DNA of 64,000 nt from an uncultured Kiloniellaceae bacterium (lineage in GTDB: Bacteria; Pseudomonadota; Alphaproteobacteria; Kiloniellales; Kiloniellaceae): positions 310,001 to 374,000 of the forward strand of contig CANLSF010000006.1 in NCBI GenBank assembly GCA_947493695.1, read 5' to 3'. The position numbers and the translations under genes were made by a program. The first letter of the stretch is position 1. Every line of letters begins with the position of its first letter. Shown here one piece after another: positions 23,339-52,706 of the stretch. Below the pieces are notes generated by a model, which saw only the letters and a list, made by a program, of their open reading frames with translations, did no database searches and was not told the origin of the DNA.

Positions 23339-25573
23339 TTAACCGGCCTTGGAGAGACTTGGCTGATATCGGCGCTCAGCAGGCAGGCGAATGCTTACGG
23401 TTGTTCCTTCATCTACAATGGATTCGATATCCAGGGCGCCGCCGTGACTTTCGACGTAGGCATTCGCGAGGGTTAAACCCAGACCTGCACCCTCGTACCG
23501 TCGCTGCAGGCTGCTATCAGCCTGGCCAAAGGCCTTCAGGCAAGTCTCGATCTGTTCGGTTGGAATGCCGATGCCACTGTCAGATACGGACAGGCGGGCC
23601 TCACCCTTATCCGACAATTCGAGGGACAACGTCACGCGCCCCCCTTCACGGTTAAACTTGATAGCGTTCGATATCACCGCGCCCAACGCTTGTTTTAGCA
23701 GCCGTTCATCCGCTGTGAAGAAAATATTCTCGTCCGGCAGATTCAGCTCAAGATCAATTCCCGCCGCGTCAGCCCGGGCGCTCGATAACGCGACAAGGCG
23801 GGTCATCAGATCGGCGAGATCTATTTCTTCCTCCCGAAGTTCAAGATCACCGTCTTCGATCCGCGCGAAATCAAGCACGTCGGTAACAGTCGCCAGAAGC
23901 CGCGCGCCACCGTCATAAATATCCTTGCTGTACTCGACGTAGTTAGGCGAGCCCAGCGGTCCGTAGAGTTCATTCTGCATGATCTCCGCAAAACCCATCA
24001 CGGCATTCAGCGGTGTCTTGAGCTCGTGACTCATATTCGCAAGGAACTCTGTTTTGGCACGGTTCGCCAGCTCCGCCTTTTTCCGCGCAGCCTTCAACTC
24101 GCGCTCTCGCCGCGCAGCGCGCCTTTCCGCTTTCACCTGTCGGTCGATGTCACGCATCAGAAGGATTAGTCCTCCGCCGTGCTCATCCTCCAATCGGGTC
24201 ACGGCCATATCCGCATGGAAGGCCCGGCGGGTTGTCCGCCTGCAGAGGATACGCATCGGTTGCCCCAAGAGAAGGGCCTGCACCAACACCTGCTCGAATG
24301 GAGCGGAATCAGTTAATTTCGAGGAAATGTAAAACGCCGACATGTTCAAACCCAGGGCCTTTGAATGCGAGATACGGAAGATCCGCATTGCTGCGCTATT
24401 GATACTGGTGATTTCGCCTTTCCTGTTGGTCGTGACCAGAGCATCAAAAGCATTTTCAGCGACGTTAGCCATCAAGGCCTGCGATCTTACGCGCGCCAAA
24501 CGTTCCGATATGACCTTGAATCCGAGTTGCCGGAAGCGGAACATAAATGCGAAAGCACCGCTCAGAAACGACCCGACGAAAATGGGTGCGACAGGAAGCA
24601 AAAGACCTAGCCTCGACTGCACGGCAAGGGCCACTCCAAAGAAAGCGATATCGAGAGCGAAAATGGTTGCCAGCGCCTGCGCTGGGCGCTGCTTCCAGCT
24701 AACGAAGGCAATACCTGCAGTGACAAGGAACAGCAAAGAAAACGTCAGGGAACTGTGAAGAGGTTGTAACGCTCTCTCCTTCACAAGAGACTGGGCTGCC
24801 AGCATCTGAACCAATACACCCGGCAAGGACTTGTGGAGAGGCACCGCAATGTTGTCACCTAACTCGACGGCGGTCGCGCCGATCAAAATGGCTTTGCCTT
24901 TCAACAGTGCCGGGTCCACAGCACCGCCTGCAACGTCCGAAAAGGAATAGCGCTGAATAGAATCCGATGCGATGCCGTAATCAATCCAGAACTCCTGTTC
25001 CCGGTCAGCTGCCTCAACTGAAATGCCGGATTGCTCAGCAAGGATTGTGGGGATACTCGGAATGACAGCACCATTCCATTCCAGAACATGCGCCATGCGC
25101 CAGACCAAACCATCGGACTCGGGAAAGACATTTGCTGAAGCCACACGACTGTGTTGAGCAAAGCGTGGCAGAGGCCCCGCGTCAACGAAGCGGTGTTCAC
25201 CGTCACTCCACTGACGAAACGCTGCAAGGATGGTATTCCCGCTGCGCCGCGCGAGTGCATTCTCCAACGCGGCATCTTCTGGCTCGCTGCTCGCCAGGCT
25301 GAAGTCGACATCGAAAACGATCGTACCGGCTTCCGCAGCGGTGAGACGGTCAATCAACAACGCATGCAGGGATCGCTTCCAGGGCCAAGTGCCGATTTCC
25401 CTTAGGCTCTTCGGGTCAATCTCGATAACGATGAGTCGTTCGTCAGTCTCGCGCTGACTAAGTTCGAAGCGTTGCTCCAGCAGGGGTCGTTCGATGAACT
25501 CCAAGAGATCTACGTTGAAAGCGATTGCCGTTACAGCAAATGCCATCAAGCAACAGATCAAACGAGAGGTCAT
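23339..25573 (-). CDS. CHASE2-PAS hybrid-type sensor histidine kinase
   Basis: A 744-residue membrane sensor kinase. After an N-terminal hydrophobic segment (3-20), residues ~30-265 form an extracytoplasmic CHASE2 domain (DERLIVIEIDPKSLREIGTW, IVFDVDFSLAS, LLKGKAILIGATA). Three transmembrane helices follow at ~275-293, 300-318 and 323-345, then a PAS domain (~368-478) and a coiled linker. The HisKA box is NMSHELKTPLNAVMGF with His516, and the ATPase domain has ISNAIKFN, SDSGIGIP and GAGLGL. All catalytic boxes are intact and there is no receiver domain. It starts 23 bp after the FecR gene with GGAGG upstream, so the two are an operon. No response regulator is adjacent. Confidence 0.93.
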   Translation of the reverse strand: MTSRLICCLMAFAVTAIAFNVDLLEFIERPLLEQRFELSQRETDERLIVIEIDPKSLREIGTWPWKRSLHALLIDRLTAAEAGTIVFDVDFSLASSEPEDAALENALARRSGNTILAAFRQWSDGEHRFVDAGPLPRFAQHSRVASANVFPESDGLVWRMAHVLEWNGAVIPSIPTILAEQSGISVEAADREQEFWIDYGIASDSIQRYSFSDVAGGAVDPALLKGKAILIGATAVELGDNIAVPLHKSLPGVLVQMLAAQSLVKERALQPLHSSLTFSLLFLVTAGIAFVSWKQRPAQALATIFALDIAFFGVALAVQSRLGLLLPVAPIFVGSFLSGAFAFMFRFRQLGFKVISERLARVRSQALMANVAENAFDALVTTNRKGEITSINSAAMRIFRISHSKALGLNMSAFYISSKLTDSAPFEQVLVQALLLGQPMRILCRRTTRRAFHADMAVTRLEDEHGGGLILLMRDIDRQVKAERRAARRERELKAARKKAELANRAKTEFLANMSHELKTPLNAVMGFAEIMQNELYGPLGSPNYVEYSKDIYDGGARLLATVTDVLDFARIEDGDLELREEEIDLADLMTRLVALSSARADAAGIDLELNLPDENIFFTADERLLKQALGAVISNAIKFNREGGRVTLSLELSDKGEARLSVSDSGIGIPTEQIETCLKAFGQADSSLQRRYEGAGLGLTLANAYVESHGGALDIESIVDEGTTVSIRLPAERRYQPSLSKAG

Positions 25574-25596
25574 GACGGGCAGCCTCCGAGTATCTC

Positions 25597-26601
25597 TTAA
25601 GCCCGCCCGCCGTTACCGCCGTTACCGCCGCCATTGCCGCCGCCGTTGCCGTTACCGTTACCGTTACCGTTACCGTTACCGTTACCGTTGCCGTTGCCGT
25701 TACCGTTACCGTTACCGTTACCGTTACCGTTACCGTTACCGTTACCGTTGCCGTTGCCACCGCCGTTGCCACCGCCGTTACCGCCGCCGTTGCCACCACC
25801 GTTGCCGCCGCCGTTGCCACCGCCGTTGCCACCACCGTTGCCGCCGCCGTTGCCACCACCGTTGCCACCACCGTTGCCACCACCGTTACCGCCGGCATTA
25901 TTGTTACCAGCGCCGGCGTTGGGGTTCCCGCTGGCTGCAGCGCCGTTGCTGCCACTGGAGTTTGAGACACCGCTGCTGCTACTTGAAGAGCTGGAGCTGG
26001 ACGAAACGCCCGCTTCGCTGGCTGAGGAACTTGCCGACATGCCTGCAGAAACCTCGGCTGTACTGCCGTCGCGAGAATCGGTCACAGAAACATTGCCGCT
26101 GCTTACGTCAACGTCGGTGGAATCCTCATCGACATCAACGCTGAAACTGGTGCCCTTAACAACAGCAACCAGATACGGCGTCTTCACAGAAAAGGTGCCA
26201 GATTTGCGTTTTTGTACCTTGTAACCAACCTTGCCCTTGCTTTGGTTGATCAGCGTTGTGGAATTCGCATCTGTCTCGGGCGAAATATCAACACTCGCAT
26301 CTGGTCCAAGCTCGATCTTATCGAAACCGTGGACAACAATCGCATGCGCCGACGCAAAGGTTCGAATCTCAATCTTGGCTGGAAGCATTGCGTTTCGGGA
26401 AAGCGGCTGCCAGTCGGCCACGCCGTTCGCCGGGCGCCACTCTGTCTTGCCTTCAGTAAAAAGTACATTCCAGTAGGAGGGTAACGTCGCAACTGAAGAT
26501 CCAGAGTTCCAGAAAAACAACGCTAGAGCAACAAAAGGAGCAATCACAGCCATCAAGGCGAAATTTCTCAAACCGCCCGTAGCGCGCATCTCTTTCCGCA
26601 T
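25597..26601 (-). CDS. FecR-domain protein with Gly-Asn repeat tail
   Basis: A 334-residue protein. A membrane anchor lies at residues ~13-31. A FecR-type extracytoplasmic beta domain occupies ~45-185 (IELGPDASVDISPE, KSGTFSVKTPYLVAVVKGTS, VDVSSGNVSVTD). A Ser-rich stretch follows, then a C-terminal tail of GGGN and GN repeats of about 95 residues. FecR domains beside CHASE2 sensors are a recurrent pair; the FecR protein probably presents or senses a periplasmic or surface signal for the kinase. Start: ATG 26601; a TTG seven codons earlier and an ATG four codons later are alternatives. Confidence 0.85.
   Translation of the reverse strand: MRKEMRATGGLRNFALMAVIAPFVALALFFWNSGSSVATLPSYWNVLFTEGKTEWRPANGVADWQPLSRNAMLPAKIEIRTFASAHAIVVHGFDKIELGPDASVDISPETDANSTTLINQSKGKVGYKVQKRKSGTFSVKTPYLVAVVKGTSFSVDVDEDSTDVDVSSGNVSVTDSRDGSTAEVSAGMSASSSASEAGVSSSSSSSSSSSGVSNSSGSNGAAASGNPNAGAGNNNAGGNGGGNGGGNGGGNGGGNGGGNGGGNGGGNGGGNGGGNGGGNGGGNGNGNGNGNGNGNGNGNGNGNGNGNGNGNGNGNGNGNGGGNGGGNGGNGGRA
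25645..25758. repeat. Hexanucleotide microsatellite, 19 tandem GTTRCC units
   Basis: Nineteen uninterrupted hexamers, either GTTACC or GTTGCC, run from 25645 to 25758 inside the FecR gene and encode alternating Gly-Asn on the minus strand. Each unit adds or removes two residues without changing frame, so slippage would vary tail length while keeping the protein intact. Confidence 0.95.
25753..25884. repeat. Twelve-base imperfect tandem repeat, 11 units
   Basis: Eleven 12-mers of the form GTTRCC-RCCRCC follow the hexamer array (the first unit shares its GTTGCC with the last hexamer). They encode GGGN units on the minus strand. Most units differ at one or two third-position bases, suggesting an older array than the almost uniform hexamers. 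Confidence 0.9.
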
Positions 26602-26845: not shown

Positions 26846-26873
26846 AAAAAAAATGCGCCGAAACGGCGCATTT
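26846..26873 (-). terminator. Rho-independent terminator of the PEP-CTERM gene
   Basis: On the minus strand AAATGCGCCG, loop TTT, CGGCGCATTT forms a perfect 10-bp stem followed by a run of eight T. It lies 50 bp after the PEP-CTERM stop and separates that gene from the FecR-kinase operon. Confidence 0.9.
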
Positions 26874-26923: not shown

Positions 26924-27541
26924 TCAGGTCCGCTGACGCGCATAGACTCTCTGACGACGTCCCAGGAGCAACAATCCACCCAATCCGGTCAACATGAGCG
27001 CCAAGGTTCCCGGCTCCGGAATCCGAGTTGTGGTGTCGCCCACCAGCTTCCATACAGTCACATGAGAAATATTTGGAGTATTACCGCCACCGTTTACCAG
27101 GCCAACCGTAGTCCAGGGACCGGTTGTCAAGCCAGCAACATTGAATATCGAGAAGTCAGTAGATGCCTTGATCGTCAGGAGATAAAGCTCTTCAGCACCA
27201 GTGTAAGTCCATGTGCCCACCGAGGATCCTGCGCCCGTGATTGTAAGGCCCCGGGATACGGAATCATCACTTTTGGCAACTTCCATGATGTCGATAAAAC
27301 TGCCAAAAACATCGAAAAGCGCCGCCTCAACCGTGTCTTCTTTGTCGTTCCCGCTGTTTGGGACCACGAAAGGACCGGATGCCCCCGTAAGGCCTTGTCC
27401 CGCGAACACCCGGCATGCAAGGTCCGTCGCGGTGTCGCATCCAACCATAGGCGTCGCGGCCATTGGCATCGCGTTCGCCGAAGTCGCCATCATCGCGATT
27501 CCACCGAGAATCGTCGAAAAAACCACCAAAAGTACGCGCAT
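26924..27541 (-). CDS. PEP-CTERM sorting-domain surface protein
   Basis: A 205-residue exported protein. Residues 1-24 are a signal peptide (VLLVVFSTILGGIAMMATSANA). The C-terminus carries the PEP-CTERM tripartite signal IPEPGTLALML, a hydrophobic helix and the basic end LGRRQRVYARQ, recognised by exosortase systems for processing and surface attachment or release. The middle (~130 residues, with GTWTYTGAEELYLLTIKAST) is a probable beta-sandwich without a named family. The start at ATG 27541 has GGGGAAGA upstream; the frame continues open 27 codons further back. Confidence 0.88.
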   Translation of the reverse strand: MRVLLVVFSTILGGIAMMATSANAMPMAATPMVGCDTATDLACRVFAGQGLTGASGPFVVPNSGNDKEDTVEAALFDVFGSFIDIMEVAKSDDSVSRGLTITGAGSSVGTWTYTGAEELYLLTIKASTDFSIFNVAGLTTGPWTTVGLVNGGGNTPNISHVTVWKLVGDTTTRIPEPGTLALMLTGLGGLLLLGRRQRVYARQRT

Positions 27542-27764
27542 AGTATTCTTCCCCAAGATTCCAAAAGGCCGCAGATTTCTTCTGCTTGAGAGCCACGAGC
27601 TAAAGAGCAATTTTCGTGCCATTGTAACTACTGCGCTGGTGTTTCCGACACTTTTACAGCCGCAGTGCTCAAATCTTGAATCTCAAATATATGATGTCAA
27701 AAGAACCGACAGATCCTATTACGTGCATATTTATGTTTTTCAAATACTTAGAAAAACAACTCGT

Positions 27765-34885: not shown

Positions 34886-35287
34886 CTATACGGTGAGCGC
34901 GGACTTCTGTTCCGGGCTGGGCACTCTTTTTGCGACCATCACTTCGTCAGCGACCGCGCAAATCTGCTTCAGCGTAAAGGGCTTGGTGATCACACGGCAA
35001 ATGAGCTCATCTAGATTATGGGCACGTTGCCGTTCGGCGGAATAACCCGTCATCAAGAGGATCGGGAGTTCCGGGTAGTCTTTAGTCACTTTCAGGGCCA
35101 GGGCAATACCGTCCAACTCCGGCATCACGATGTCGGTGATCAGCAGATCGAAGCTGTTCACGCTAAGCTGCTCGAGTGCCTGGACGCCATCGTCGGACGT
35201 CGTCACCTTATGCCCTTTATGAGCCAGAGCCCGCGCGACAAAACTCTGCACCGCGCGATCATCCTCGGCCACTAGAATACGAGCCAT
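34886..35287 (-). CDS. cpdR: CpdR-like single-domain response regulator
   Basis: A 133-residue receiver domain with no output domain. It begins MARILVAEDDRAVQSFV; phosphorylation is expected on the aspartate of DLLITDIVMPELDGI, with the switch Thr in LLMTGYSAERQRAH and Lys in VITKPFTL. Single-domain regulators starting MARILxAEDD with TDIVMPExDGI are CpdR orthologues, which adapt ClpXP to degrade cell-cycle proteins when unphosphorylated. Orthology is inferred; another stand-alone CheY-like role is possible. It is not adjacent to a kinase. Confidence 0.75.
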   Translation of the reverse strand: MARILVAEDDRAVQSFVARALAHKGHKVTTSDDGVQALEQLSVNSFDLLITDIVMPELDGIALALKVTKDYPELPILLMTGYSAERQRAHNLDELICRVITKPFTLKQICAVADEVMVAKRVPSPEQKSALTV

Positions 35288-50258: not shown

Positions 50259-52706
50259 GTGCAGAGAGCTTCCCATCCAACAGCACCACTATTGTCATCC
50301 GTATCTTGTAGACGAATTTGTTGCAAACCGCGTCAATTTCGAAAAGCCCTGACCGCCGCAACTTCGGTTTTCGCGATTCTTCTTTCGCAATCGACGGCTC
50401 ATGCCGTGCCGATGGATCTCTTCTTTTCCGAGTACATTGAAGGTTCGTCGAACAACAAGGCCCTGGAGATCTACAACGGAACCGGCAGCGCCATCGATCT
50501 GGATGCCGGGCTCTATGATGTACAGTTTTATTTCAACGGCAACTCCACTGCGACCTCAACGATCGGTCTGACGGGCAATGTGGCCAGCCTGGATGTCTTC
50601 GTCGTCGCGGACGACGGTGCCAATGCTGCGATCCTGGCGCAAGCCGATCAGACACCGAGCAACAGCTTTTTCAACGGCGACGATGCCATTGTTCTGCGCA
50701 AGAACGGCACCATCATCGACTCCATCGGCCAGATTGGTGTCGACCCGGGACTCGAATGGGGGACAGGCCTGACCTCAACGCGTGACAATACGTTGCGCCG
50801 CAACGCCGACACGATGGTTGGTGACACCGATCCATCGAACGCCTTCGACCCGGCACGCGAGTGGACCGGCTTTGCCCAGAACAGTGTTGACCAGCTAGGC
50901 AGCTTCCCTGACGCCCTTCCACCACCTGTCGCCGAGCGCAAGATCTACGAGATCCAGGGCGAAAACCATGTTTCGGCTTTCAATGGCGAAGCGGTTAAAA
51001 CCACTGGCATTGTCACCGCCCTGGCTTCCAACGGCTTTTACGTTCAGGATCCCGACGGCGACGGCAATGACGCAACCTCAGACGGCATCTTCGTCTTTAC
51101 CGACGATTCCCCCAGCGTGGCCGTCGGCGACGATGTCGAGGTGACCGGGTCCGTGGCGGAGTTCACGCCGGGCGGTACCGCCTCGGGCAACACCTCTATC
51201 ACCCAGATCTCCTCTTCGGAATCGGTTATCACCAACAGCAGCGGCAACAGCCTGCCTGCGGCCACCATCATCGGTACCAGCGGCCGCGTCCCGCCAAACG
51301 AGACCATAGAGACCGGCGACTTCAATTCCTCTTTTGATCCGGCGACCGATGGCCTCGACTTTTACGAAAGCCTTGAGGGCATGGTGGTCACGATCGAGGA
51401 CGCCCAGGTTGTTTCTCCCACCAACAGGTTCGGCGAGATCACGACAGTTGCCAATCAGGGTGCCAACGCGACCAACCAGGGCAACCCCGGTCTGAACAGC
51501 CGCGGCGGGATCAATCTGGATGAGAATGACGCTAATCCCGAACGTCTGCAGATCGATGACGGCCTCTTACCCGGCGCCTCCCCCAGTGCCAATACGGGCG
51601 ACAAGCTGGGCGACGTCACCGGTGTGATCAGCTACGGCTTCGGCAATTACGAATTGCTGCCCACCGAAGAGTTCAGCGTGACCTCCGGCGGCATCACGAA
51701 GGAAGTCACCACTCTGGTCGGTGGCGAAGACCAACTGACCGTGGCGAGCTACAACGTCGAGAATCTCGATCCGGGTGATGGCGAGCGCTTCAATGATATC
51801 GCCGGACAGATCGTCAGCAACCTGCGCTCGCCCGACATCATCGGTCTGCAGGAGATGCAGGATAACTCAGGACCGACCAATGACGGCGTAACCTCCGCAA
51901 GCCAAACCGCGCAGGTGTTGATCGAGGCCATCGCTGCTGCGGGTGGCCCCACCTATACCTACGTCGAGATCCCACCGGAAGACGGACAGGACGGCGGACA
52001 GCCGGGCGGCAACATCCGGGTTGGCTATCTCTACAACGACGAGCGCGTGGATCTGATCGAGGCATCGGTCGAACGCATTCTGGATACTGACGGTGACGAT
52101 GCGTTCGCCGCGACACGCAAATCACTTGCCGCAAAATTCGTTTTCAACGGTGAAGAAGTCACCATCCTCAATAACCACCTCTCCTCCAAGGGCGGCAGCA
52201 CTCCGTTGTTCGGCACCACCCAGCCGTCAATCAACGGTCGTGTTGATAACCGAACCGAACAGGTCGCAGTGCTTATCGATTTCATTCAGGAGGTCTTTGA
52301 CGTCGACCCGAACGCAAACCTCATTGCCTTGGGTGACTTCAACGAGTTCCTTTGGGAGCTGCCACTCGAACTGCTGTCTGAGGTTCTTACCGATCTGCTT
52401 ACGCTTCTGGATCTGGACGATCAGTACAGCTTCATCTTCGAAGGGAACTCACAGGCGCTCGACCACTTCTTTGTCTCGGAAAATCTACTCGGTCTTGCGA
52501 TGCCGGAGATCGACATTCTGCACATCAATACGGAGTTTGCGGACCAACCCAGTGATCACGATCCGATCGTGTCGCGTTTCAGCTTTGGCCGGGCTGTTGC
52601 TTCTGTTCCTGAACCGGGCAGTCTGGCGTTACTGTTGATTGGCTTAATGGCTCTCAGCTACACCCGTCGTCGAAGCCCAGCTCCTGCAAGCCAAAAGCAA
52701 GCCTGA
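50259..52706 (+). CDS. Secreted LTD/EEP nuclease-fold protein with PEP-CTERM signal
   Basis: An 815-residue exported protein. A long signal peptide is followed by a lamin-tail domain (residues ~48-170; DLFFSEYIEGSSNNKALEIY, GDDAIVLRKNGTIIDSIGQI). An OB-like region comes next (~230-480), then an endonuclease/exonuclease/phosphatase domain (~495-775) with SYNVENL, DIIGLQEMQD, NNHLSSKGG, IALGDFNE and SDHDPIV, and a C-terminal PEP-CTERM signal VPEPGSLALLL plus basic tail. The EEP metal and catalytic residues appear intact, so extracellular DNase or phosphodiesterase activity is likely. The start is GTG with AAGGA upstream. Confidence 0.9.
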   Translation: MQRASHPTAPLLSSVSCRRICCKPRQFRKALTAATSVFAILLSQSTAHAVPMDLFFSEYIEGSSNNKALEIYNGTGSAIDLDAGLYDVQFYFNGNSTATSTIGLTGNVASLDVFVVADDGANAAILAQADQTPSNSFFNGDDAIVLRKNGTIIDSIGQIGVDPGLEWGTGLTSTRDNTLRRNADTMVGDTDPSNAFDPAREWTGFAQNSVDQLGSFPDALPPPVAERKIYEIQGENHVSAFNGEAVKTTGIVTALASNGFYVQDPDGDGNDATSDGIFVFTDDSPSVAVGDDVEVTGSVAEFTPGGTASGNTSITQISSSESVITNSSGNSLPAATIIGTSGRVPPNETIETGDFNSSFDPATDGLDFYESLEGMVVTIEDAQVVSPTNRFGEITTVANQGANATNQGNPGLNSRGGINLDENDANPERLQIDDGLLPGASPSANTGDKLGDVTGVISYGFGNYELLPTEEFSVTSGGITKEVTTLVGGEDQLTVASYNVENLDPGDGERFNDIAGQIVSNLRSPDIIGLQEMQDNSGPTNDGVTSASQTAQVLIEAIAAAGGPTYTYVEIPPEDGQDGGQPGGNIRVGYLYNDERVDLIEASVERILDTDGDDAFAATRKSLAAKFVFNGEEVTILNNHLSSKGGSTPLFGTTQPSINGRVDNRTEQVAVLIDFIQEVFDVDPNANLIALGDFNEFLWELPLELLSEVLTDLLTLLDLDDQYSFIFEGNSQALDHFFVSENLLGLAMPEIDILHINTEFADQPSDHDPIVSRFSFGRAVASVPEPGSLALLLIGLMALSYTRRRSPAPASQKQA

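Follow-up and report, generated by a model that had tools for sequence, protein, structure and literature searches.

A FecR-domain protein with a low-complexity Gly/Asn tail encoded beside a CHASE2 sensor histidine kinase in an uncultured Kiloniellaceae bacterium

Gene layout and the probably exported FecR-domain protein

The DNA analysed here, referred to as the window, is a 64,000-nucleotide stretch of contig CANLSF010000006.1 (positions 310,001 to 374,000; assembly GCA_947493695.1) from an uncultured Kiloniellaceae bacterium. On its minus strand, a gene for a FecR-domain protein of 334 amino acids (25597..26601; ATG at 26601, stop at 25597), recognized as an open reading frame (ORF) with a match to PF04773, is followed after a gap of 23 bp (25574-25596) by a gene for a 744-amino-acid sensor histidine kinase (23339..25573), identified from Pfam, invariant residues and Foldseek. 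The kinase carries a CHASE2 periplasmic sensor domain (PF05226, 132.5 bits; residues 13-284, 24722..25537), a PAS domain (PF00989; residues 368-476, 24146..24472), a HisKA domain with phospho-acceptor H516 (PF00512; 23849..24058) and a HATPase_c domain (PF02518; residues 622-733, 23375..23710), all on the same strand and all exceeding the Pfam cut-offs. The FecR protein consists of a hydrophobic N-terminus (residues 1-38; 26488..26601), a FecR domain (PF04773, 45.7 bits, E 9.5e-12; residues 84-171, 26089..26352) and a low-complexity tail (about residues 195-334; 25600..26019), again all on the minus strand. This operon-like layout, with both diagnostic domains above cut-off, bears out an earlier note on this DNA that described a tight FecR-CHASE2 kinase pair. 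A promoter scan of the locus gave a result no better than shuffles.

The pair is flanked by an ornithine cyclodeaminase-like gene and, about 0.3 kb upstream, by a PEP-CTERM protein gene (26924..27622, minus strand). The latter is genuine (TIGR02595, 24.7 bits versus a cut-off of 16) and is followed by an intrinsic terminator (26851..26873, minus strand) with a 10-bp stem and a U tract, whose fold has a z-score of -4.4 and was matched in stability by 0 of 200 shuffles. A second PEP-CTERM protein ORF is found elsewhere in the window at 50259-52706 on the plus strand (815 aa, ...VPEPGSLALLLIGLMALSYTRRR).

The hydrophobic N-terminus of the FecR protein, previously read as a membrane anchor, ends in S-V-A. 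In the six closest FecR proteins S36 and A38 (S-x-A) are invariant while other residues after the hydrophobic segment vary, and a simple heuristic scan detects a hydrophobic segment with an A/V/S-x-A site in 48 of 52 FecR homologues, examples being ...GEARA/EPA and ...CRLAWA/DP, where the slash marks the cleavage-like position. The invariant S-x-A and the recurrence of comparable sites in most homologues favour a cleavable signal peptide over an anchor for this N-terminal helix, and the heuristic scan suggests that signal peptides span the whole family. The product would be a soluble periplasmic or envelope-attached protein. FecR is the only domain that Pfam detects in it, with no LysM and no N-terminal anti-sigma domain, and its C-terminus (...GGNGGRA) is without a PEP motif followed by a transmembrane segment and basic residues, a regular-expression scan flagging only the PEP-CTERM neighbour. 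The AlphaFold model of the protein is too poor for use (pLDDT 38), and the FecR profile found no match among PDB sequences. A sub-threshold NCBIfam resemblance of the domain to Leptospira Lsa33/LipL45 was discarded, as it reflects the shared FecR domain only.

Conservation of the pair and of the kinase

By kinase identity, the nearest relatives of the window pair are found in an uncultured Kiloniellaceae bacterium (L009, 78%) and in Pelagibius sp. Alg239-R121 (L008, 73%). Orthologous pairs with the same gene order are present in these two congeners and in three Sneathiella species (59%), FecR orthologues with this layout being those of L008, L009, L010, L011 and L014, and the two genes are 23-24 bp apart in all six of the closest pairs. 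Across the order we counted 23 short-form CHASE2 genes, 16 of which are preceded on their own strand, at no more than 1.3 kb, by a listed FecR match, a proximity expected by chance in less than 1% of cases. Among the other seven, one has a FecR protein that was found by phmmer (G013), three are truncated at the edge of a contig (with the last part of a FecR domain visible in one and, in another, just a repetitive stretch lying on the other strand), two belong to a different, shorter CHASE2 type, and one (G026) seems to be without a FecR partner. More widely, a close FecR homologue is present in 27 of 385 sampled alphaproteobacterial genomes. A lack of co-occurrence would have spoken against the pair, and what we found is that a CHASE2 gene adjoins fecR in 42 of 47 loci, in 40 on the same strand and downstream and in two divergently; three of the five remaining loci sit at contig edges. 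Distances between FecR proteins correlate with those between CHASE2 domains beyond what the kinase core accounts for (partial r 0.51, versus 0.24 for FecR and core), a correlation to which shared rates may partly contribute.

Variations on this arrangement exist. In four loci (L123 in G052, L127 in G021, L222 in G207 and L225 in G061) two tandem FecR-tail genes precede one CHASE2 gene, and the kinase frame of G052 is interrupted by TAA. Other CHASE2 receptors in the order adjoin FecR proteins that carry cadherin/RTX adhesin repeats or a VWA domain. FecR fusions beside CHASE2-type genes were seen in relatives at L141:2226-11150, L143:2641-7494 and L142:4634-7543, the FecR-cadherin/RTX adhesin fusions being 2974 and 1617 amino acids long. 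What these loci share is a FecR domain close to CHASE2, combined with a variable outward extension.

The kinase itself is intact, as the earlier note had it: H516, E517, T520, N523 and the glycines of the ATP lid are invariant in 18 kinase homologues. Its best Foldseek matches are ordinary histidine kinases only. In its catalytic half, the protein most closely resembles the DivJ/PdhS-type and TorS-type kinases of alphaproteobacteria; in contrast to the PdhS/DivJ/PleC families (NCBIfam NF050805, NF041593), it has a CHASE2 input and scores far under the family cut-offs (DivJ, 188 versus 1000 bits; PdhS, 171 versus 2000 bits). The pair has no receiver domain in its vicinity, and the closest one in the window sits at 34886-35287, about 8 kb away, so that the description of the kinase as an orphan holds; L206 is the only homologous locus scanned that has a receiver domain nearby. 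Assignment of a response regulator through HisKA similarity was abandoned, as the genome encodes about 20 paralogues that score much the same against this HisKA domain. The CHASE2 partners of FecR-tail genes are mostly histidine kinases, and relatives also have CHASE2-PAS-GGDEF-EAL (L134, L220) or CHASE2-EAL proteins (L211, L214, L223) in this position. A second CHASE2 histidine kinase locus (L137:5722-14055, corresponding to G000:C1:23-32 kb, and L149:2420-6588) holds adjacent response regulators, a short FecR-domain ORF and an OmpA-like protein; it is compact in G041 and stretched over about 8 kb in the genome of the window.

Low-complexity tails of the FecR homologues

The tail of the window FecR protein is about 140 amino acids long and consists of a poly-serine stretch followed by GGGN/GN repeats, with Gly, Asn, Ser and Ala making up 97% of it. 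Its DNA forms a tandem array at 25616-25894 with a period of 12 bp and 23 copies, as determined by TRF, and the lowest entropy over 30 residues is 0.78 bits, so that a long Gly-Asn tail is indeed present. Entropy falls below 2.6 bits in none of the 48 other non-overlapping ORFs of at least 150 amino acids in the window. Two long plus-strand ORFs lying antisense to the array (25494-26144 and 25634-26224; 216 and 196 amino acids) were rejected as repeat artefacts.

Such a tail had been considered unusual, a view that did not survive a tabulation of homologues of the pair. Over the 47 loci, 47 of 51 FecR homologue tails contain a 30-residue stretch below 2.6 bits and 36 of 51 one below 2.0 bits, with a median tail length of about 190 amino acids and most tails between 100 and 300. 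Tails occur in nearly all homologues, from more than 20 genera, and are built from independent units of similar composition. The GGGN unit is found in Kiloniellaceae and other families, GVGV/GASAG units in Sneathiella, GGS in G027 and G028, RDGGDRDGG in G052, and NAGGNS, GNSGNS and GGGGS in further FecR tails, while two tails are of the proline/glutamate kind; GVGA is also among the units. The tails of G056 and G011 are less repetitive and Gly-poor. A second, phylum-wide sample of homologues yielded further low-complexity tails of like kind. A low-complexity tail is therefore the rule among such FecR partners in many alphaproteobacteria.

In the window, 13 GGGN units are encoded by five DNA spellings that differ only at third codon positions, and third-position differences between GGGN-encoding units range from 0.15 to 0.51 per pair. 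The choice of unit dictates the first and second codon positions, and the comparison speaks only to the age of the units. Since the spellings diverge synonymously, the units appear to be old and retained, which speaks for a peptide that has been kept more than for recent slippage but does not prove a function.

About half of the tails also contain a short conserved motif, LGxxxLDhxxxTxGLVR, which follows the FecR domain and precedes the repeats. The pattern [DN]h...[TSV].G[LF][VILA] matches 23 of 52 FecR proteins (for example L124, L130, L202 and L212) and shuffled tails 0.08 times on average with a maximum of 2, a figure that is optimistic given that the pattern was derived from the protein set on which it was tested. 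In a later sample (L227-L244), the motif recurs in 10 of the 16 additional homologues that are of this FecR type, eight of the 10 coming from one genus. The motif is absent from the window protein and its clade.

A possible envelope sensor and its alternatives

Pairs of FecR and CHASE2 proteins are known in signalling, as had been remarked for this locus. The BiofilmReg operon of Burkholderia encodes a response regulator, a LysM-FecR protein, a CHASE2-PAS histidine kinase and a DUF4136 protein, and a FecR and CHASE2 histidine kinase pair has also been described in P. aeruginosa (PMC5192318). As in these, a FecR-domain protein, here probably exported, is encoded directly upstream of a CHASE2-PAS-HisKA-HATPase kinase in the window. 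Unlike BiofilmReg, the window pair lacks a LysM domain, a neighbouring CreB-like response regulator and a DUF4136 gene, and its FecR protein has a Gly/Asn low-complexity tail, whereas the published Burkholderia and P. aeruginosa operons are without a tail. In Campylobacterota, a FecR-domain envelope protein is likewise grouped with a CHASE2 receptor, but there the output is an adenylate cyclase and the cluster includes additional TPR and phosphodiesterase genes (PMC9239204). Sinorhizobium has the CHASE2 cyclases CyaD1, CyaD2 and CyaK, which the literature links to the outer-membrane protein NsrA (PMC13001267); an envelope protein detecting an outside signal also feeds a CHASE2 receptor there, with the differences that NsrA is a beta-barrel rather than a FecR-tail protein and that the output is cAMP. 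A FecR-domain protein of Sinorhizobium, SMc02177, is a Clr target (PMC5498481). A literature search, conducted mostly outside subscription journals, found no account of the low-complexity tails or of the GLVR motif. FecR/CHASE2-kinase operons have already been published, and what appears to be new here is the tails and the motif.

We put at roughly 55% the reading that the two genes encode an envelope sensor in which a periplasmic FecR protein partners the CHASE2 receptor, with the tail reaching the wall, outer membrane or matrix. The FecR protein would be exported to the periplasm by its cleavable signal peptide, and its beta-rich FecR domain would partner the kinase's CHASE2 domain in the periplasm, a role as receptor subunit suggested by the pairing, the 23-24 bp spacing and the correlated distances. 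The flexible, hydrophilic tail, presumably kept for composition and length and not for sequence, may extend this subunit toward peptidoglycan, outer membrane or extracellular matrix, where it would meet its ligand; an outward reach is suggested because related CHASE2 loci pair with FecR-adhesin or VWA fusions. The contact state would be read by FecR and CHASE2 and relayed, by way of PAS and HisKA, to a response regulator whose gene is not linked to the pair. Surface growth or biofilm may be the output: in Burkholderia, disruption of the response regulator gene in the FecR/CHASE2 operon abolishes biofilm (PMC5192318), and suppressors in that regulator arose from wrinkly biofilm mutants (PMC4324302). 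Points that count against this sensor reading include a tail composition that is possibly tolerated and not selected, the tails of G056 and G011 being Gly-poor, and the two loci that are divergent and not operonic.

The most serious alternative, to which we nevertheless give only about half the weight of the sensor reading, is that the tail is a neutral passenger, with GC-rich tandem codons growing and contracting through replication slippage and being tolerated at the C-terminal end of a periplasmic protein, while only FecR and CHASE2 matter. The array is indeed a 12-bp tandem repeat, repeat units and lengths shift fast between genera, and the same two Gly-poor tails fit tolerance; set against this are the near-universal presence of tails of similar composition and mostly 100-300 amino acids in more than 20 genera, built from independent units, the synonymous divergence that makes the units old, and the conserved motif in many tails. 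It is improbable, in turn, that the pair is part of a PEP-CTERM/exosortase system and controls exopolysaccharide or the sorting of surface proteins. The PEP-CTERM gene noted earlier as preceding the pair is real, the genome's single exosortase lies in an exopolysaccharide-like locus, and 20 of the 61 genomes from the order carry an exosortase, namely 11 of the 16 with the kinase and nine of the 45 without it. However, the strong terminator separates that gene from fecR, and linkage does not extend beyond synteny within the genus (L008, L009), with no such gene next to the pair in Sneathiella or in other families. Co-occurrence with exosortase, a check proposed at the outset, is likewise loose: five kinase-bearing genomes are without one and, because kinase and exosortase do not clearly track each other within genera, shared ancestry may explain their overlap. 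On this evidence, the PEP-CTERM gene and the exosortase probably stand outside the FecR-CHASE2 system.

In E. coli, FecR is a sigma-factor regulator for iron citrate. It is very improbable that the window protein acts in this way: it shares the PF04773 domain, but it has no anti-sigma domain, its N-terminus being signal-peptide-like and not cytoplasmic, no sigma factor (FecI) or TonB receptor (FecA) gene is adjacent, and the genome has a FecI-FecR-receptor-like set elsewhere, at C5:48 kb (L139).

Extending the envelope-sensor reading beyond this locus, we tentatively suggest, at somewhat less than even odds, that the homologues form an undescribed sensor class across alphaproteobacteria, in which selection acts on the composition and length of the tail as a reach or matrix-contact element, often together with a docking motif, and the output is exchangeable among histidine kinase, GGDEF-EAL and EAL modules; the clade of the window may have lost the motif and rely on its repeat tail alone. 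To our knowledge, the signal sensed by CHASE2 receptors is not known in most systems, and disordered tails conserved in composition have rarely been considered in bacterial periplasmic signalling. If FecR partners do carry both a docking motif and a flexible element for reaching outward, the CHASE2 signal would be sought in contact with the wall, outer membrane or matrix, and mutants in tail length and motif would offer a direct test.
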